From NCBI GenBank assembly GCA_015066815.1, contig SVNR01000013.1:1-53525 (forward strand): 53,525 nt of DNA, given 5' to 3'. Both the position numbers and the translations under genes were made by a program. This document shows positions 2,787 to 19,887 of this stretch, one piece after another. The DNA is from Ruminococcus sp. (GTDB lineage Bacteria > Bacillota > Clostridia > Oscillospirales > Ruminococcaceae). Each line of letters begins with the position of its first letter. The stretch's first letter is position 1. The notes under the pieces were generated by a model that was given only the letters and a program-made list of their open reading frames with translations, was not told where the DNA came from and searched no databases.

Positions 2787-3450
2787 TTTTTATTGAAAAT
2801 TCTGAAACCGTGCACCTTTCGTTTATTGAGTCGAAGATTTTTTCGGGGGAAATATTCTGAGGAACACGGGCTATTATTTCGATGTTCATAGTGTCGTCTT
2901 TTTTCTTTTTTACGCTCAGTCTTAGTGTGTTTATACTGAGCTTGTTCATGCATTCTTTTACATCGCCTACTACATCGATGTTGTACTCCGTTCTGAATGA
3001 AAACTCAGCTATAGGCATGTTTTCCGGATTCGGAAGTGAACAGTGCAGGATTATCTGGATTACTATTATCATCAATGTAGCGCATATGCCTATGATATAC
3101 ATACCTGCGCCGACTGCACATCCCACTCCGGCAGTTGTCCATATGCCTGAGGCTGTGGTAAGACCGTTTACATAGCCGCCTCTTGTAAAAATAACCCCTG
3201 CTCCGAGAAAGCTTACTCCTGTGATTATGTTTGCGGCCATTCTTGATACGTCAACGTTTATTCCCGGTGCACCTGCGACATCGATAAAGCCATACTTTGA
3301 GACTATAACAAGAAGTGCTGCGCCGAGTGTTACCATGATGTGAGTTCTTATTCCGGCTTCCTTCTGACGTTTGCTTCGTTCAAAACCTATTGCGGCTCCA
3401 CATACTACCGCGAGCGCAAGGCGGAGAAGCAGTGTAAATTCATTTTGCAT
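2782..3450 (-). CDS. MgtC/SapB-family membrane protein
   Basis: From the ATG at 3450, which has GGGAGGGG 5-8 nt upstream, the product is 222 residues; an earlier in-frame ATG lacks a ribosome site. The N-terminal ~140 residues form four or five membrane segments with the MgtC/SapB signature (AAIGFERSKRQKEAGIRTH, then FLGAGVIFTRGG). The C-terminal ~80 residues look like a cytosolic ACT-like domain. MgtC relatives are tied to growth in low magnesium and to control of membrane energetics. It appears monocistronic with its own promoter. Confidence 0.9.
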   Translation of the reverse strand: MQNEFTLLLRLALAVVCGAAIGFERSKRQKEAGIRTHIMVTLGAALLVIVSKYGFIDVAGAPGINVDVSRMAANIITGVSFLGAGVIFTRGGYVNGLTTASGIWTTAGVGCAVGAGMYIIGICATLMIIVIQIILHCSLPNPENMPIAEFSFRTEYNIDVVGDVKECMNKLSINTLRLSVKKKKDDTMNIEIIARVPQNISPEKIFDSINERCTVSEFSIKI

Positions 3451-3481
3451 ATAACCCCTCCCTTGATCATATATGCTTATC

Positions 3482-3515
3482 ATAGTAAACAAAAAATATT
3501 TTTTGTTTATATATC
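3482..3515. repeat. Dispersed palindrome, copy 1
   Basis: ATAGTAAACAAAAAATATTT and its mirrored half form an almost perfect palindrome of the TATAGTRAACG family found across the window. It lies in the leader between the mgtC-like promoter and gene. Confidence 0.6.
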
Positions 3516-3525
3516 TCTTGTTAAC

Positions 3526-3554
3526 ATTATATTTTCTTTTTTGCTATTCGTCAA
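3526..3554 (-). promoter_or_regulatory. Sigma-A promoter of the MgtC-like gene
   Basis: Minus-strand TTGACG (3549-3554), 17-bp spacer, TATAAT (3526-3531). The transcript would start near 3519 and carry palindrome copy 1 in its ~70-nt leader. Confidence 0.8.
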
Positions 3555-3581
3555 TAGCTTTTCGGTAACTTGCAGAGGATA

Positions 3582-3596
3582 TATAGCAAACGTCAG
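3582..3596. repeat. Dispersed palindrome, half copy 2
   Basis: TATAGCAAACGTCAG matches one arm of the repeat family. The second arm is not evident. Confidence 0.4.
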
Positions 3597-3627
3597 TATT
3601 AATAGTGCCTTGCACATCTGCTGACAT

Positions 3628-3662
3628 TAAAAAGGGCTTTTCGTATATTAACGAAAAGCCCT
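3628..3662 (-). terminator. Terminator of the aspartate kinase gene
   Basis: AGGGCTTTTCG pairs with CGAAAAGCCCT (3633-3662), followed on the minus strand by a T-run. It sits 20 bp past the lysC stop. Confidence 0.85.
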
Positions 3663-3681
3663 GATTTTTCTGAAAAATATA

Positions 3682-5010
3682 TTATTCTGCTGAGTCCACA
3701 AAAACGCTGTAGATACATCTGATAGCGTCTTCAAAATCATTTTCGCCTATTCCGACAATGATATTAAGCTCACTTGAACCCTGATCTATCATTTTTATGT
3801 TTATTCTTGCATGAGAAAGTGCAGCAAATACTCTTGCAGCTGTTCCTCTTGTCTTGTACATTCCGTGTCCCACTACAGCGAGGAGTGCGATGTTGTGTTC
3901 AACGTCTATATGATCCGGATTAACTTCTTTTCTTATCTGGGAGATAACTGCTTCTTCCTTGCCTTCAAGTGAAGCTGAGCTTAAAACTATACTCATAGTG
4001 TCTATTCCGGAAGGGATATGCTCGAAGGAAAGCTCGTTCTTATAGAGTATGTCGAGAATCTTCTTTACAAAACCTATCTCGCTGTTCATCATGGATTTTT
4101 CTATGTTGATAGCACAGAAGCCCTTCTTGCCGGCGATACCTGTGATAGTAGTTCTGCTTGCTTCCTCTGAGTTATCCTCTGAAACGATCATAGTGCCGGG
4201 AGCAGCAGGATCGTTTGTGTTGCGGATGTTTATCGGGATGCCTGCTGTTCTTACAGGGAATATAGCATCCTCATGAAGAACTGTAGCGCCCATGTATGAA
4301 AGCTCTCTGAGCTCCTTGTATGTGATGGTCTGGATTACCTTTGCGCCGTCAACTATTCTCGGGTCAGCGATAAGAAATCCTGATACGTCTGTCCAGTTCT
4401 CATAAAGCTCTGCGCGTACTGCACGTGCTATTATAGAGCCTGTAACGTCTGAACCGCCTCGTGAAAATGTTTTTATAGTATCGTTGAGTGTTATTCCGTA
4501 AAAGCCCGGTATAACAGCACAGTCTGTGTTCTTGATTCTTTCTCTTACTGCTGATATTGTCTTATCAAGCATGAAGGAACCGTTGTCATCAAAGAAGATT
4601 ACTTCTGCTGCGTCAATAAACTCATATCCGAGATATGCTGCAAGTATAATGCCGTTAAGATATTCGCCGCGGCTGGCTGCATAGTCACGTCCGCTCTTTG
4701 CCTTAAGGCAGTACTCTATCTCCTCGAACTCCTTGTCAAGACTGAGGTCCATACCGAGATCGCTTATTATACCGTTGTAACGTTCTTTTATTTTGTTAAA
4801 CTGTTCTGTTATGCTTTTGCCACTTTTTGCAAGCTCATAGCAGCTGTAGAGCATATCTGTAACTTTTATATCATCGCTGTATCTTTTTCCGGGAGCAGAT
4901 GGAACGACAAACTTTCTCTTGTCATCTGCCTTGATGATATCTGCAACTTTTCTGAACTGATTTGCGTCAGCAAGACTGCTTCCGCCAAATTTTACTACCT
5001 TAACGCCCAT
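3682..5010 (-). CDS. lysC: Aspartate kinase
   Basis: The 442-residue protein phosphorylates aspartate, the first step to lysine, threonine and methionine. The N-terminus has the kinase motif VVKFGGSSLAD (residues 5-15). 'FSRGGSDVTGSIIA' at about 183-196 and 'WTDVSGFLIADPRIV' at about 206-220 build the aspartate/ATP site. Two ACT domains follow from about 295, where effectors bind. AAGGAAG lies just upstream of the ATG. It is monocistronic with its own promoter and terminator. The leader is only ~50 nt, so a lysine riboswitch is excluded here and feedback control is probably through the ACT domains. Confidence 0.95.
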   Translation of the reverse strand: MGVKVVKFGGSSLADANQFRKVADIIKADDKRKFVVPSAPGKRYSDDIKVTDMLYSCYELAKSGKSITEQFNKIKERYNGIISDLGMDLSLDKEFEEIEYCLKAKSGRDYAASRGEYLNGIILAAYLGYEFIDAAEVIFFDDNGSFMLDKTISAVRERIKNTDCAVIPGFYGITLNDTIKTFSRGGSDVTGSIIARAVRAELYENWTDVSGFLIADPRIVDGAKVIQTITYKELRELSYMGATVLHEDAIFPVRTAGIPINIRNTNDPAAPGTMIVSEDNSEEASRTTITGIAGKKGFCAINIEKSMMNSEIGFVKKILDILYKNELSFEHIPSGIDTMSIVLSSASLEGKEEAVISQIRKEVNPDHIDVEHNIALLAVVGHGMYKTRGTAARVFAALSHARINIKMIDQGSSELNIIVGIGENDFEDAIRCIYSVFVDSAE

Positions 5011-12375: not shown

Positions 12376-13095
12376 ATGTTAAGATTTGCTGTTTGTGACG
12401 ATGAAGAATATATATGCAGTAAATTAGAGAAATTTATATCTCAATACTGTAAATATACGAACAGAGAATACGATGTAGATATTTTTACATCAGGTGAAGC
12501 GTTTATTAACCGTCTCAACTCTGATAATAACTATCATATCATTTTTCTTGATATTGAACTGCAAAAATGTAACGGAATAGAGGTCAGCGAGTATATCAGA
12601 AATATTATCGGAAATGAAACAGTACAGATTGTATACGTTTCAGGGAAAACAGGATATGATCGTCAGTTATTTATGTATAGACCATTTCAATTTATAGATA
12701 AGCCTTTTGAATATGAAAAGATTTCTGCAGTAATAGAGAAGTATTTACGTATATACGGGAATAAAAGCGGAATTTTTCATTATAAGGTCGGACACGATAC
12801 ATACTGGGTTAAGCCTGAGGAAGTATTATACTTCAAAAGTATTGATAGAAAAATAAAAATAATAAGTACATCCTCGGAGGATATATTTTACGGTTCTCTT
12901 GAAAAAGTTGAGGAACAGCTTAAAGGACAGGGCTTTTTGTCACCGCATAAATCTTACCTTGTAAATTACCGTTTTATTCGTTCATTTCGGTCGGATCTGA
13001 TAGTTCTGATAAACGGGGAAGATATACCTGTTGCAAAGTCAAAAAGAAAAGAAATTGCCAGGGCTCAGATAATTCTGGAAAACGGAGGCGGATAA
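12376..13095 (+). CDS. LytTR-type response regulator, AgrA-like
   Basis: The 239-residue protein has a receiver domain (residues 1-~120) with acidic pocket D8/D9, phosphoacceptor D59 in 'IIFLDIEL' and the conserved K109 in FIDKPF. A LytTR DNA-binding domain (~135-235) contains 'EEVLYFKSIDRKIKI' and 'GFLSPHKSYLVNYRFI'. This is the AgrA/VirR architecture that binds paired 9-bp direct repeats. GAGGAGG precedes the ATG. Its stop lies 1 bp before the kinase start, so the pair is translationally linked. It is the first gene of the agr-like locus. Confidence 0.92.
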   Translation: MLRFAVCDDEEYICSKLEKFISQYCKYTNREYDVDIFTSGEAFINRLNSDNNYHIIFLDIELQKCNGIEVSEYIRNIIGNETVQIVYVSGKTGYDRQLFMYRPFQFIDKPFEYEKISAVIEKYLRIYGNKSGIFHYKVGHDTYWVKPEEVLYFKSIDRKIKIISTSSEDIFYGSLEKVEEQLKGQGFLSPHKSYLVNYRFIRSFRSDLIVLINGEDIPVAKSKRKEIARAQIILENGGG

Positions 13096-13096
13096 T

Positions 13097-14386
13097 ATGT
13101 TAACTGATACTTATCGCTTGATATATCTGATTACTAATTTATTCAATGTGGTGATTATTTCAAAATTCATGAATGCATTTTATCAGAAAAGAACAACATC
13201 TAAAATTATATGTTTGTTGTCCTGTCTTTCGTATTTTGTTATAACAAGCGTTGTTTATCTTAATTTAGATATTCCTATGCTAACATTAATTGTGAATTAT
13301 GTTATTATATTCGGAATATCGTTTAACTACGAATCTCATCTCAAAAGAAAATTTCTGATATCTCTGTATATTCTTTTATTTATGGTAATCCCTGAATTTT
13401 TAATTGCAGCTTTGACCGGCTTTATTCATTTTTCGTTTTTTAGCGAAGGAGGCTACAGCAACAGCATAGGTGCTGTTGCCGTCCGGCTGGTTACATATAT
13501 GGAAGCGCTGTTGATTAAGAATTATAAGACAGTAAAAAATAATCAGAAGGTATCGAATTCTGAATGGGCAGCTTCAATATTTGTTCCGGTTACAACATTG
13601 ATTCTGGAGATAATGATTATTCAGTCTCATCAATTATCAAAAGCAGTGGTTATTACTTCTTTGTGTCTTGTTTTTACTCTGAATTTTATAGCGTTCTATC
13701 TGTATGATTCTTTGGCGGACAGTTACATGAAAATTGCAAGCTTTGCTGTTATAGAAAAAGAAAATGAGCTTTACAGTAAACAATGTGAAATGATGCAGAC
13801 TTCAACAGAAAGTCTTCAGGCGTTCAGACACGATCTTTGCAATCAGTTTGCGGTTGTATCAGAGCTGATGGAAAAGGAGAAATATGATCTTGCACGAAAA
13901 CAGATATCATCATTGTTTCAGCAGACAATGAATAATGCCATTTACAGTACGACAGGAAATATGGTTATAGACAGCTTGATAAACTACAAGCTTCAGTCTG
14001 CTTTCAATAAAAAAATAAAAATCGACTCGGATATAGCTGTTCCTGAAAATCTTGATATGGATGTCACTGATATTATAACTATAATAGGAAATTTACTTGA
14101 TAATGCAATAAGAGCGGTTACGGAATTACCTGAAGACAAGAGAAATTTATTTATGAAGATTGTATATAGTCAGGACAGACTTATAATACAATCGATAAAT
14201 CCGTATTGTTCAGAGGTTAAGTATAGCAATGGAGAAATCATATCCTCTAAGGAGGATGCTGATAATCATGGATACGGAATAAAGAATATTGAACATATAG
14301 TTAATAAATATGATGGTTATATGGAAATAAATCATGAACATTCGTTGTTTAAGGTAGATATACTTTTGTATCTTGTACGTTCATAA
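13097..14386 (+). CDS. AgrC-like sensor histidine kinase (GHKL ATPase)
   Basis: The 429-residue protein has six or seven membrane segments in the first ~205 residues, then a dimerisation region with phosphoacceptor H245 in FRHDLCNQF, an N-box GNLLDNAIRAV (about 331-341) and G-box HGYGIKNI (391-398). The atypical H-box and absence of other sensor domains define the HPK10/AgrC class, whose ligands are cyclic thiolactone peptides. It lies between the LytTR regulator and the AgrD-like peptide gene, giving the order regulator-kinase-peptide. Confidence 0.9.
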   Translation: MLTDTYRLIYLITNLFNVVIISKFMNAFYQKRTTSKIICLLSCLSYFVITSVVYLNLDIPMLTLIVNYVIIFGISFNYESHLKRKFLISLYILLFMVIPEFLIAALTGFIHFSFFSEGGYSNSIGAVAVRLVTYMEALLIKNYKTVKNNQKVSNSEWAASIFVPVTTLILEIMIIQSHQLSKAVVITSLCLVFTLNFIAFYLYDSLADSYMKIASFAVIEKENELYSKQCEMMQTSTESLQAFRHDLCNQFAVVSELMEKEKYDLARKQISSLFQQTMNNAIYSTTGNMVIDSLINYKLQSAFNKKIKIDSDIAVPENLDMDVTDIITIIGNLLDNAIRAVTELPEDKRNLFMKIVYSQDRLIIQSINPYCSEVKYSNGEIISSKEDADNHGYGIKNIEHIVNKYDGYMEINHEHSLFKVDILLYLVRS

Positions 14387-14404
14387 ATAATCATGATTTT
14401 CCCG

Positions 14405-14468
14405 TTCACTACGAAAAAACGGCATTTTACTGCAAATTCTCGCACAGAGGGTTCTTTTGTGATATAAT
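14405..14468 (+). promoter_or_regulatory. Candidate activator-dependent promoter of agrD with paired LytTR/AgrA sites
   Basis: CACTACGAAA at 14407 and TACTGCAAAT at 14428 form an imperfect direct repeat exactly 21 bp apart (two helical turns), the spacing used by LytTR regulators. The -10 box TATAAT is at 14463-14468, but the -35 position (about 14440-14445, TCGCAC) is poor. The second repeat ends just before it, as expected for an activated promoter. The site is inferred from spacing and position, not from a known consensus. Confidence 0.5.
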
Positions 14469-14508
14469 TCGGTTAATCAAGGGAACAGTCTGAAAGGAGG
14501 AAATAGCA

Positions 14509-14652
14509 GTGAAAAAAATTTTTTTGAAGTACCTTAGCTGCGCTGCATCGCTTGCCTTTGTTATTACAGCGATAACAGCAAATTCTACATGCGTATGTAT
14601 TATTCATCAGGATAAGCTTCCTGTTGAGGCAAAAAAACTGCGTAGATTCTGA
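14509..14652 (+). CDS. agrD: AgrD-like cyclic lactone autoinducer prepeptide
   Basis: A GTG start with AAAGGAGG 8 nt upstream opens a 47-residue frame. The N-terminus MKKIFLKYLSCAASLAFVIT is the amphipathic membrane leader, the core is NSTCVCII and the tail is HQDKLPVEAKKLRRF. This is the three-part AgrD plan: in S. aureus the core YSTCDFIM precedes a charged, Pro-containing tail. The predicted signal would be a thiolactone ring from the first core Cys to the final Ile; the second Cys inside the ring is unusual. No agrB protease/exporter gene is present nearby, so processing must rely on an AgrB elsewhere or the locus is silent. Confidence 0.88.
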   Translation: MKKIFLKYLSCAASLAFVITAITANSTCVCIIHQDKLPVEAKKLRRF

Positions 14653-14827
14653 TGTTTTTAAGAGCATCGGAAAAAATCGCGGATGTTTTCGTTCTGAAGA
14701 AGGTATTCGTGATTATCTTGCTGTAATGTCTTATGTCAGCACAGCTAAAAAACATGGTAAAAATGCTTTTCAGGCTATCTTGAATGTTTTTGAAGGTAAT
14801 ACTTTTTATGCTATTGAAGACTGAGGT
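14653..14827 (+). pseudogene. IS66-type transposase, C-terminal remnant
   Basis: Starting directly after the agrD stop, the frame FKSIGKNRGCFRSEEGIRDY, then LAVMSYVSTAKKHGKNAFQA and ILNVFEGNTFYAIED ends at 14824. The 'GCFRSEEG...YVSTAKKHGKNAFQA' pattern is the C-terminal tail of IS66-family DDE transposases. Only ~55 of ~500 residues remain, with no start and no catalytic triad, so it is a relic. It occupies the place where agrB might be expected, suggesting that an insertion and deletion removed sequence after agrD; this is inference. Confidence 0.6.
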
Positions 14828-14828
14828 G

Positions 14829-14840
14829 CTGAACAGTTAC
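14829..14840. repeat. 12-bp motif shared with 19636, probable old IS end
   Basis: CTGAACAGTTAC lies 5 bp after the IS66-type remnant's stop. The same 12 bp recurs at 19636-19647, where it interrupts the IS3-type remnant. The likely explanation is two copies of one IS terminus. Confidence 0.4.
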
Positions 14841-14893
14841 GTTAAATGAATAAATGTACATTTCCGTATTGAGTATTTTGAGAGGAGTAGGCA

Positions 14894-17800
14894 ATGAACT
14901 CAAAACATACGTTTCTTATTTTTGTTTTTCTTACAGCTTTTATATTTTCCTCATGCACCGGGCAAAAGAGCGAAAAAAACATCACAGATACACAGGTTTT
15001 AGAAAATTATTTTACCTCAAATGAAATTTCCATGCCTGAAGGAATGATCTATGCCCAAAACTTAGCCTGCCAAAACAATAAAATCTATGTTTCAGGAATA
15101 ACCTCGACAAATCAGCCGAAAAGATATGTTTATAGCTTCGATACAACAAATGAGACGTTTACTGAAATAAATACAGACATGCTTTCTGACAAATACATAA
15201 CAGCCATGTATATGAACCGAGAGCAGATGATTATAGGAAGTAAAAACGGCAGTATAAATATAAACGGCAAGGATGCATTCAGGCTCTCACCCGGAAAATC
15301 AGCAAGGGCATTTTATGAAACTCTGAATAATGATTTGATAATAATATCTGCTGATGACAGAAATAATTTTTATGCAAATATTTATGATAATACAACATAT
15401 GAACTCAAAGATGAGCTGAACTTTTCTGAAATATGCAGCTTCGGATTCGGAACAAATATTCTGAATGTTCTTTTTAAAGATGGAGTGTTCTGTGTTATTT
15501 CAGAAAAATACGAGGAAGACAAACGAGTAAACGATCTTTATATAATATCAAGTGAAAAGACGATTGTATCAAAACATGAAAATATTTTACCTGATACTAA
15601 AGGCTATTATGAGAAGTCGTATTTCAACAAGCGAGGAAATCTCTGCGTTATTTTCGGCAGTCTTTCGGATTCATCTCTTATAAGTATAGATGAACTGAAT
15701 ATTTCAGATGGCATGAGAGTGAATACATATGAAGAAACGTTTCAGCATATAACACTGCTTACATTTCCATATAGCCCTGAGACATATGACTTTCTCTATT
15801 GGGAAGATGGGAAAATATATGGTTATGACGCTGATAATGTAAAAAAATGCGAGATTATCAATAAATCTGATAAAAACGACTTTATTAACAATTGTCAGTG
15901 TGCTGCGTTTTATGGAAACACCTATATTTTCTATTCGATAGATATGCAGAGTCAGGATACGCCCATAATGTTTACTCTTGATGAAAACGGAAAGTATGAA
16001 AAAAAGATAACATCATCAGATTATACTGAAGCAGGCAGAGCAGAAAACATCATTCTGCTTTCAGACGGAAAAATGTGCATCAGTGAATATTCTGATGAAA
16101 ACTATATATTAAGAATTGTTGATGAAAACGGCAATCTGCTTAATTCGATTTTTCCGTGCAGTGATACCGATGATGTTATAACCGGTATTGCATGCGCAGG
16201 AAAAAGTGGTGAAATATATTTTGTACAGAAAATAAACTCCCAAAACGATAAAATGATAAAAGTATCGGTGTTTAACGAATCCGGAGATATTCAGAGAGAA
16301 GCCTATATCACCAACAATGCGGAAGATATATCGATAAAAGGCATATTTGGTTTTAACGGTGCAGATTTTCTGATGTATGAATCAGAAAGCTCCGGATATA
16401 TAACCTCATTTGCTTCAACAATAAACTACGAAGATGGTACATTAGAAGAACGTATAATGGAAGGTATACGCGGAATCTGTGAAAACTCTGATGGCGAGCT
16501 TTGCTTTTATACAAGCGAAGGCGTTTATAACTATGATGTGAATACAGGAAAATCAAGAGAGATGATCAACTGGTGTGAATCGGATATCATAAGTCAGGTA
16601 TATTCAGTGTGTTCCGAAAACAAAGACAGACTTCTGTGCATTACAAACGACAGAACCGGTTATCATCTTTTACAGCTTGACAGGGCAGATGAGGCGGTCA
16701 TTGAAAAACTAAGAACCAGAGAAGTAATAAAATTAGCAGGAATAGATATTCAGCTTGGAAATATCAGCGGGGAAATAGAGCACTTCAACAGTACAAATGA
16801 AAACTACAGAATACAGGTTACTGACTATATGAAATATTCTTCACAAGATGATTATGATGAAAGTATAAAAAAGCTCAATCTTGATATAGTTTCAGGAAAA
16901 GTCCCCGATATACTCATAGGAAACGCTGATCTTGATCTTAAACTATATTCATCAAAAAATATGTTTGCAGATCTGAATATGTATATTGAAAAAGATGATA
17001 CAATATCACGTTCTGATTATTTAGAAAACATACTTGATTGTTTCACATATAACGGAAAACAGGTTATGTTTCCGTTGAGATTCCGTATTTTTTCACCAGT
17101 TGGAAAGGCAAGTGTTGTCGGAGAAAAGCAAGGCTGGACATATGATGAGTTTTTTAAGCTTGCTGAAACAAGGCAGATTTTTTACTCTCCAACACAGGAA
17201 TTTCTTTCAGAAGTACTTATTTATTCAAATATAACCGAGTTTGTAGATTATAATGAGAAAAAGTGTGATTTTGAAAGCGGCTTATTCAGACAAATAATTG
17301 AATACATTTCCGAAAACGGAGTAGTCCGTGATGAAAATTATATTCCTCCATCATCAAGTGAGGATGATGAGGTGTTCAGTGCGTACTGCCGGAGATTTGA
17401 AGATGATCTTTGCTGTGCCGATAACATAAATACTTCTTCTGTAAAATTAATATCAGGAATACAGAACGGAGCTATGAAGGGAGAAAAATTAGCATATAAG
17501 GGAGTTCCGACATCAGAAGGAAATGGTGTTCTTGCAGTGCCTTATCCTCTGATAGCTATTACGGAACAGTCACAAAACAAAGACGGAGCATGGGAGTTTG
17601 TAAAACAGCTCATATCTGACAGATATCAGAACGAAAGTACCGCGTTTCCTATAAAAAAATCAGCTTTTGAAAAATATATTAATCAGTCTGATCAGGGAAT
17701 AATGTTTATAGAAAGAGCAGACAGAACAATGTATAGAACAGAACCTCTGACAGATGATGAACTGGAAAAATTTTCACAGGCTGTACAGAATATAGATCAT

Positions 17801-17938
17801 ATCTATACAACTGATAGTACGGTAAATGGTATCATAAGTGAACAGCTATCACTTTTCCTTTGCGGAGAACAGTCATCTTCTGAAACAGCTTCTGCTGTAC
17901 AGAACAAGGTTTCACGTTATCTTAGTGAAATAAAATAG
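14894..17938 (+). CDS. Large lipoprotein: N-terminal beta-propeller-like sensor region plus extracellular solute-binding-like domain
   Basis: The 1014-residue protein has a lipoprotein signal with lipobox Cys at residue 21 (FIFSSC). Residues ~30-590 are rich in repeated beta-strand units such as 'NEDLIIISADD', 'GKIYGYDAD', 'SDGKMCISEYSDEN' and 'SDGELCFYTSEGVYNYD', suggesting a beta-propeller. Residues ~610-1010 resemble family 1 extracellular solute-binding proteins ('VSGKVPDILIGNADLDLKLY', 'FPLRF', 'GWTYDEFFKLAETR', 'PLIAITEQSQNKDGAWEFVK'). No permease genes follow, so import is unlikely; surface sensing fits better. GAGAGGAG precedes the ATG. Its closeness to the agr-like locus may mean coregulation, but an IS relic lies between. 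Confidence 0.75.
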   Translation: MNSKHTFLIFVFLTAFIFSSCTGQKSEKNITDTQVLENYFTSNEISMPEGMIYAQNLACQNNKIYVSGITSTNQPKRYVYSFDTTNETFTEINTDMLSDKYITAMYMNREQMIIGSKNGSININGKDAFRLSPGKSARAFYETLNNDLIIISADDRNNFYANIYDNTTYELKDELNFSEICSFGFGTNILNVLFKDGVFCVISEKYEEDKRVNDLYIISSEKTIVSKHENILPDTKGYYEKSYFNKRGNLCVIFGSLSDSSLISIDELNISDGMRVNTYEETFQHITLLTFPYSPETYDFLYWEDGKIYGYDADNVKKCEIINKSDKNDFINNCQCAAFYGNTYIFYSIDMQSQDTPIMFTLDENGKYEKKITSSDYTEAGRAENIILLSDGKMCISEYSDENYILRIVDENGNLLNSIFPCSDTDDVITGIACAGKSGEIYFVQKINSQNDKMIKVSVFNESGDIQREAYITNNAEDISIKGIFGFNGADFLMYESESSGYITSFASTINYEDGTLEERIMEGIRGICENSDGELCFYTSEGVYNYDVNTGKSREMINWCESDIISQVYSVCSENKDRLLCITNDRTGYHLLQLDRADEAVIEKLRTREVIKLAGIDIQLGNISGEIEHFNSTNENYRIQVTDYMKYSSQDDYDESIKKLNLDIVSGKVPDILIGNADLDLKLYSSKNMFADLNMYIEKDDTISRSDYLENILDCFTYNGKQVMFPLRFRIFSPVGKASVVGEKQGWTYDEFFKLAETRQIFYSPTQEFLSEVLIYSNITEFVDYNEKKCDFESGLFRQIIEYISENGVVRDENYIPPSSSEDDEVFSAYCRRFEDDLCCADNINTSSVKLISGIQNGAMKGEKLAYKGVPTSEGNGVLAVPYPLIAITEQSQNKDGAWEFVKQLISDRYQNESTAFPIKKSAFEKYINQSDQGIMFIERADRTMYRTEPLTDDELEKFSQAVQNIDHIYTTDSTVNGIISEQLSLFLCGEQSSSETASAVQNKVSRYLSEIK

Positions 17939-18029: not shown

Positions 18030-19563
18030 TAATCACGAAACTTCGGTTTTTTAGGTATGCAACAATTCTTCAATAGTTAACGGTACATTAAAGTGTTCGA
18101 ATAGTTCTTTTTGCCGTTTAAGACAATTAGTGACACTCCAACGTTCTAATCTTTTATGAGCCTTAACCATTCTTGCTTCAAGCAGGCAATCCTGAAGACT
18201 TTTTCCGTTAATCTCTTTCGCGCGTTTTTCCATCTCACAATATATCAATGAACTTACAAGCATAATGAATGCAAGACCTTGAGCTTTGCAATAATTATCA
18301 ATATGCAATGAATTGTAACCAGCCTGATTTTTGAGATAATTATAAAATGTCTCTATTCCCCAGCGTTTCTTATAAAGTTCATATACTTCTTGCGGAGTAT
18401 TTTCTGTTAAGCTTGTCTGTAACACTGTTACGCCCATAAAGTCTTTGTTTTTTTCAAAACCTTCTGTTGTGTATGATTTATCACCACGTTCCATATGACG
18501 AATATAATTTGCTTGTTCCGTAGCAGATTCATTTAAATCTCTGTAAGTCAAAACACGGAAACCGTTTATTATTTCGTCTTTACATTCAATAACCGAAGAT
18601 TTTTTTCCTTTCTGATAAACAAATCGTTCATTCATTTCGATGCTTTTCACAGCAGCTTTGCATGTCTTAAGATTTTTGCCAAGCGGTATTATGTACGCAT
18701 TACCGTTTGAACTGAAAATGCTTATGTTCTCGGTTGAATAAAATCCTCTGTCTACAATAAACAACATATTTTTAAGTTCAGTTTGATTGAGAAAGTCTTT
18801 GACGCTTAATTTGTCGTTGCTTGCCCCTTCGTAGATTCGTGAAATCAACGGGGTTTTAGAGTTTATGTCATATGCCATGAGCAAGTTTATTTGTGGTTCT
18901 CCGATTTTTTTGAATTTATATCCTTTTTCAGAAAGATCATTATTTTCTGATGCTGAACCAATGACATGTTCGTCAATAGCAATTTGTCCGGATGATAATT
19001 CCACAAGACGTTCTTCCATTTTTAGAATGCAAGTTTGTCTGCTGCCAAGAGATTCGTAAAGATTGGAGACGGTTTCTTTTCCAAGTTTTAATGAAGGGAA
19101 CACAAGAGAGAGTATGCTCATATCAAAGTAATCTCTGATGTTTTTAATATATGTAAATCCATTAATAAAATGGATTATTGATATTACATATATCATGGCA
19201 GCATCCTGAGGGTTAAAAAACTCATTTAACATTGAAAGAATATTTTTAGAGTTAACGAGTGTTATGGCATATTCACCATAGTCGAGTGTACTTATTTCTG
19301 AATCGCAAACGAAGGAATTATTAGGGATGAAGCCGATTCCTTCTTTTATACACCCAATAAGACTGCCCATTTTGGTGTGACGCTTTCCGTCGTCGCCTTT
19401 GACGGTTTTATATTCATAAACGTAATAATTATTAGAAATAAGTTTAACCATAGTGCCTTTTGGCTTTAATTTTCTCACTGATTCTGGAACTGAATATTTA
19501 CCCATACTTTCTACCTCCAGTATACCTATTAAACATACCTAAAAAACCGAAATTCTGTGATTA
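18030..19563. mobile_element. Complete insertion sequence (IS4/IS1634-like) with 30-bp terminal inverted repeats
   Basis: The left end 18030-18059 (TAATCACGAAACTTCGGTTT then TTTAGGTATG) and the inverted right end 19534-19563 (TAATCACAGAATTTCGGTTT then TTTAGGTATG) match over 30 bp with about four differences. They enclose one full-length transposase. The stop codon of the transposase lies inside the left repeat. A target duplication was not recognised, so the exact outer boundary could be a few bases off. Confidence 0.85.
18051..19505 (-). CDS. DDE transposase, IS4/IS1634-like superfamily
   Basis: The 484-residue product is intact. DDE-type elements in order are IAIDEHVIGSASE near 192-204, LFIVDRGFYSTENISIF near 265-281 (second Asp), and 'YKKRWGIETFYNYLKNQAGY' near 393-412 carrying the catalytic Glu of the Y-(2)-R-(3)-E-(6)-K signature. 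GGAGG precedes the ATG. The frame shows no lesion and the inverted repeats are well preserved, so the element may still be active. Subfamily assignment is approximate. Confidence 0.85.
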   Translation of the reverse strand: MGKYSVPESVRKLKPKGTMVKLISNNYYVYEYKTVKGDDGKRHTKMGSLIGCIKEGIGFIPNNSFVCDSEISTLDYGEYAITLVNSKNILSMLNEFFNPQDAAMIYVISIIHFINGFTYIKNIRDYFDMSILSLVFPSLKLGKETVSNLYESLGSRQTCILKMEERLVELSSGQIAIDEHVIGSASENNDLSEKGYKFKKIGEPQINLLMAYDINSKTPLISRIYEGASNDKLSVKDFLNQTELKNMLFIVDRGFYSTENISIFSSNGNAYIIPLGKNLKTCKAAVKSIEMNERFVYQKGKKSSVIECKDEIINGFRVLTYRDLNESATEQANYIRHMERGDKSYTTEGFEKNKDFMGVTVLQTSLTENTPQEVYELYKKRWGIETFYNYLKNQAGYNSLHIDNYCKAQGLAFIMLVSSLIYCEMEKRAKEINGKSLQDCLLEARMVKAHKRLERWSVTNCLKRQKELFEHFNVPLTIEELLHT

Positions 19564-19627: not shown

Positions 19628-19788
19628 CTATACTCCTGAACAGTTACCTTTCATTTCTTTTTTGATCCAGTCATACAAAGTTCCATACGGTATTTTCAGT
19701 TCTTCGCTTGCTTTTTTGCACCAACTTCTTTGGCAAGCTTTACTGCTTCTTTCTTGTATTCTGCTTCGTATTTTCTTGGCTTATCCAT
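19628..19788 (-). pseudogene. IS3-family transposase OrfA remnant, frameshifted
   Basis: From ATG 19788 the frame gives MDKPRKYEAEYKKEAVKLAK then EVGAKK, followed after a one-base loss by SEELKIPYGTLYDWIKKEMK and a stop at 19628. Together this is the helix-turn-helix head of an IS3/IS150-type OrfA. The frame break and missing OrfB make it nonfunctional. Sequence after the HTH merges with the 12-bp motif CTGAACAGTTAC on the opposite strand. Confidence 0.7.
19636..19647. repeat. 12-bp motif shared with 14829
   Basis: Second copy of CTGAACAGTTAC in the same orientation, cutting the IS3-type remnant. Probably the end of a lost IS66-type element. Confidence 0.4.
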
Positions 19789-19887
19789 ATACTGACAACT
19801 CCTTATCATTTTCTATTATTTCCATTATAAATTTGGTGGATTAAAGTTGTCAAGTATTATTATACTACATCAAATTTATATAACGAG

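Follow-up and report, generated by a model that had tools for sequence, protein, structure and literature searches.

The locus at positions 12376-14652 of Ruminococcus sp. contig SVNR01000013.1 is very probably an agrACDB-type quorum-sensing locus in which agrB was lost through an IS66-linked truncation, so that it is defective as a sender and might still respond to foreign peptide. The system is of a known kind that apparently broke recently, not a new one. The genes agrA, agrC and agrD are intact; of agrB nine codons are left, and after them comes the end of an IS66 element. The window (the whole stretch of 53,525 nucleotides that was analyzed) is one whole contig (G000:C16). The genome (G000; 2.64 Mb, 92 contigs, estimated 96.7% complete) is represented by one short-read-type assembly of one strain. 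The features are as follows, with the basis for each in brackets.

12376-13095, + strand: agrA-type LytTR response regulator, 239 aa, intact (PF04397 62.5 bits, PF00072 45.3 bits)
13097-14386, + strand: agrC-type GHKL sensor kinase, 429 aa, open frame (PF14501 79.7 bits)
14405-14435, + strand: candidate AgrA (LytTR) operator, direct repeat TTCACTACGA / TTTACTGCAA, 21 bp apart (7/10 bases match)
14463-14468, + strand: TATAAT, putative -10 element of the agrD promoter; the -35, near 14440, is poor (sequence; layout alike upstream of agrD in locus L030)
14509-14652, + strand: agrD, AIP precursor, 47 aa, GTG start (TIGR04223 quorum_AgrD, 36.4 bits, cut-off 19, E 4e-9)
14652-14680, + strand: 5' remnant of agrB, MFLRASEKI plus part of the next codon (N-terminus profile, overlap position, DNA match)
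14681-14840, + strand: terminal 160 bp of an IS66-family element, from the end of the transposase gene to the terminus ...GAACAGTTAC (NF033517 positions 345-386)
14894-17938, + strand: lipoprotein, 1014 aa, with a C-terminal solute-binding domain (PF01547/PF13416)

Probable IS66-linked truncation of agrB

In the closest relatives the gene order is agrA-agrC-agrD-agrB and the agrD stop overlaps the agrB start (TGATG in L030; TGATG or TAATG in L031, L032, L033, L034, L037 and L124). The window retains the TGATG overlap at the end of agrD, and the first nine agrB codons (14652-14678, MFLRASEKI) sit at the exact base expected from it, in a frame that continues as a 24-aa ORF to 14726. When nine AgrB N-termini were turned into a simple profile, MFLRASEKI scored highest among the 1211 ATG-started 9-mers in the window. 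The DNA at 14641-14677 also matches G005:C50 8375-8411 across the agrD-agrB overlap (86%, E 1e-5). MFLRASEKI leads directly into the IS66 end, so that agrB has been cut after nine codons and the rest is gone; no continuation was seen by eye in 14841-14893, past the IS66 end. The remnant shows that AgrB once belonged to the locus. An earlier note on this DNA had placed an IS66-type relic in the space after agrD, which is real, but overlooked the nine agrB codons there. One of its three scenarios, that the locus lost its processor, is directly supported by these codons, the IS66 cut and the placement of agrB in orthologues.

From 14681 on, the sequence is 78% identical to an intact IS66 of G005, and over 97-127 bp its end is 100% identical to eight other copies in G000, all with different flanks. 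These eight stand at contig termini (C3, C9, C57, C60, C72, C80 and both ends of C91). With eight or more identical right ends in one genome, this is a young, expanded IS66 family that was collapsed in the assembly. Zero differences in 127 bp correspond to a divergence under about 2.4% (95%, our calculation), a loose bound on age. The loss of agrB looks recent, because a dead fragment of 160 bp shows no divergence yet from the live copies, and a recent loss would leave agrA, agrC and agrD intact without any selection and without calling for an alternative processor. An IS1634-type transposase gene (18051-19505) and a short transposase-like fragment (19696-19809) lie just downstream, in what is an IS-rich area.

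Comparable lesions and layouts are on record. Frameshifts in agr were reported in >5% of Staphylococcus aureus genomes, and IS insertions in agr are also documented (PMC8768832). The agr2 locus of Clostridioides difficile R20291 has the same order, agrA, agrC, agrD and agrB, on one strand (PMC3754575), whereas agrB in the window has only nine codons and G000 holds no second agr locus. Locus L030 of G007, a genome of the same genus, shares with the window a core with two Cys (ACVCIM), the promoter layout and the TGATG overlap, and differs in its intact 208-aa AgrB. In the Lachnospiraceae MAG SUG1314 (L124), agrC is 50% identical and the agrD core is NTTCCFIMHQEPLP, again with two Cys, but an intact AgrB of 206 aa overlaps agrD.

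Regulator, kinase and peptide precursor

The order LytTR regulator, AgrC-like kinase and prepeptide, as the earlier note had it, was borne out by Pfam and TIGR04223 at the positions listed above. The motif residues of AgrC were conserved (H245, D246, N249, N332, D335, N336, G392 and G394; alignment A1), and the protein, with an N-terminal half of membrane type, could be aligned end to end with AgrC from AgrB-bearing loci. Identity to the L030 orthologues was 56% for agrA, 49% for agrC and 55% for agrD. As a contig-scan query AgrC alone returned no relative, whereas relatives were found with alignment A1.

The GTG-start prepeptide of 47 residues, described beforehand as having a leader, the core NSTCVCII and a charged tail, is an AgrD by TIGR04223, and since the match lies above the cut-off the ORF is not a chance one. 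It follows a strong ribosome-binding site (AGGAGG, 14495-14500), and the encoded precursor conforms to the AgrD model (amphipathic leader, Cys-containing core, charged tail type). No second AgrD above the TIGR04223 cut-off was found in G000, where the window copy is the sole one, and there is thus no sign of another agr locus in that genome.

AgrD relatives in same-genus genomes were about 40-57% identical. Cores seen in relatives are NSTCIYLM, NSTCSWIT, NSACIWIT, NSTCLAII and NAACVCIM, followed by [HNY]Q and a tail of LP..A..LR+F type. Comparison with these relatives, which had been proposed as a check, found the NSTC-type core and the LP..AK.LR+F tail kept as the hallmark of the family; NSTCVCII is a normal family core. 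The ring is most likely CVCII, of five residues, with the predicted AgrB cut before HQDKLP, judging from clostridial AgrD comparison and family knowledge. The second ring Cys to which attention had been drawn is present, but the core is less novel than was implied, since two Cys also occur in the closest orthologue (L030, with intact AgrB); they are found as CC in L124 and L136. Because the AgrB-bearing orthologue has the second Cys too, the idea that this residue plays a special role was dropped.

Candidate operator and downstream lipoprotein

A direct repeat at 21-22 bp spacing is the expectation for a LytTR dimer site. The repeat in the window is imperfect (7/10) and weak when taken alone (shuffle p 0.1). 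Repeats of 9-10/10, in equal place and spacing (21-22 bp), were found in 7 of 13 relatives, and the summed best-repeat score over 13 loci was 110, against a shuffled maximum of 84. In many of the loci the unit, of ~10 bp, stands ~100 bp ahead of agrD. Control of the agrD promoter by AgrA is thus likely in the family; for the window itself it is plausible.

Several same-genus genomes carry homologues of the lipoprotein gene at 14894-17938 inside their fetched agr loci. The gene is a possible output of the agr locus, and such lipoproteins may be a common agr output in the group. Large solute-binding lipoproteins recurred in agr loci of the genus (the window, L033, L034, L041, L042, L043, L044, L116 and L117), often accompanied by permease and ABC ATPase genes; in the window, the IS1634-type transposase follows instead of transporter genes.

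Other loci lacking AgrB

The survey covered 24 loci where AgrD adjoins AgrC and was seeded with AgrC and AgrD; it is blind to AgrC loss, and the frequencies of AgrB and AgrC loss are therefore not comparable. An intact agrB stood beside agrD in 20 of these loci and was missing from four, which are the window and the following three.

G005:C50 (L032 8386-8900): agrB is a pseudogene with several stops; agrA, agrC and agrD intact
G008:C18 (L033 8194-8400): agrB deleted just after the start codon, past ATGTTTAAG; agrA, agrC and agrD intact
[Clostridium] polysaccharolyticum DSM 1801 (L136 6331-6623): clean agrA, agrC and agrD, then another gene, with no trace of agrB

Because the lesions differ in kind, the four losses look independent, and the comparison suggests that AgrB loss is recurrent, in two same-genus loci and [Clostridium] polysaccharolyticum besides the window. 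Other intact AgrBs are present in the genomes of G008 and [Clostridium] polysaccharolyticum, and only the pseudogene in G005 (87% complete). Three further sites were noted. In G072:C14 (L113, about 3400-3850), the stretch after another AgrD resembles, by eye, a decayed agrB. Nearly identical agrD-bearing segments were found at contig ends in G008:C75 (L037 3209-3346) and G010:C83 (L038 56-193); their agrD frames carry an early stop codon, and the segment is possibly mobile or shared.

These loci bear on whether selection has kept AgrC-AgrA as a receive-only listener to the AIP of other strains or species, with agrD as a passenger. The open agrA and agrC frames with all motif residues fit such a listener, as does the loss of agrB at least four times with the other three genes intact. 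Against it, the identical IS66 ends date the event as recent and intactness needs no selection, while a survey seeded with AgrC and AgrD would miss losses of those genes. Selection for listening is accordingly considered unlikely for the window. The wider proposal, that selection has repeatedly favoured agrACD with no agrB, a costly sender step being dropped to give a receive-only circuit (or one with AgrB shared in trans) and agrD being kept for some reason, is regarded as rather improbable. Open-access literature searched for receive-only (eavesdropping) agr and for loci lacking agrB did not describe any agrACD locus of this kind. That all four independent AgrB-less loci have kept agrD might point to some use for it, and this counts against a simply broken locus.

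Search of the genome for AgrB

AgrB is common in same-genus genomes, 8 of 10 having a match over the PF04647 cut-off. The full-genome search that had been suggested was run, and the reported absence of AgrB held: none was found in the G000 assembly with PF04647 at E<=10, with the AgrB protein of the orthologous G007 locus as query, or with a 12-sequence AgrB profile at E up to 1, the last including agrB fragments on other contigs. As positive controls, the same 12-sequence profile detected intact AgrBs in G007, G008, G010 and the genomes of L124 and L136, and also recovered a fragment of 65 positions in G007 and, from G005, broken pieces.

Processing of the window AgrD in trans by an AgrB whose gene lies elsewhere, the first scenario of the earlier note, is therefore unsupported in this assembly. 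Room for such a gene is left by the estimated 3.3% of the genome that is missing and by contigs ending at IS copies, and G008 and the L136 genome do have AgrB-less agrACD alongside intact AgrBs elsewhere. Three empty searches, the last with a profile able to detect both intact and fragmentary AgrBs, and the single AgrD over the cut-off make an AgrB in trans very improbable.

Assembly at the IS66 end

The absence of agrB could also be an artefact of assembly at the repeated IS66 end, with agrB present on the real chromosome. Eight contig ends lie inside the same IS66 end, 97-127 bp from the terminus, which indicates that the assembler branched there. The junction between agrB codon 9 and IS66 (~14680), however, is outside the shared repeat end and would need separate reads to be assembled; the right flank is reached by bridging no more than about 160 bp, and the gene on that flank is one whose homologues lie in the agr loci of relatives. 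The search of other contigs for agrB fragments, empty as reported above, speaks against a misjoin as well, and an artefact is judged highly improbable.

Hypothetical maturation by another peptidase

In Clostridium thermocellum, a mature cyclic AgrD pentapeptide was detected by LC-MS/MS and no cognate AgrB was identified by the authors (PMC5322536). Its AgrD, Clo1313_2818, resembles that of the window in having no recognised local AgrB, but it lies outside an agr operon, forms a lactone and not a thiolactone, and its mature peptide has been demonstrated (PMC5322536). AgrB-independent maturation is thus possible in principle and nothing in the window calls for it. That another peptidase and exporter mature AgrD here, with AgrB dispensable, as the earlier note also considered, is scarcely credible given a decapitated agrB, the lack of any linked replacement candidate and the retention of AgrB by orthologues; no evidence for it was found.

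Expected consequences for signalling

Under truncation by IS66, an IS66 copy would have landed in or beside agrB, and a later deletion would have removed most of the element and what was left of agrB beyond the nine codons. AgrD can be made, but with AgrB missing, cleavage, cyclisation and export of the peptide should fail, and the cell should no longer send signal. AgrC-AgrA should remain able to answer a matching peptide from neighbours and then to activate any target genes as well as the agrD promoter. Since the loss, the other genes have apparently had too little time to decay.

The locus is a clear case of a quorum-sensing circuit losing its sender, with agrB truncated exactly after the agrD-agrB overlap and the rest intact. 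With three more agrACD loci that lack AgrB beside it, receive-only agr in gut-type Clostridia becomes a testable question.
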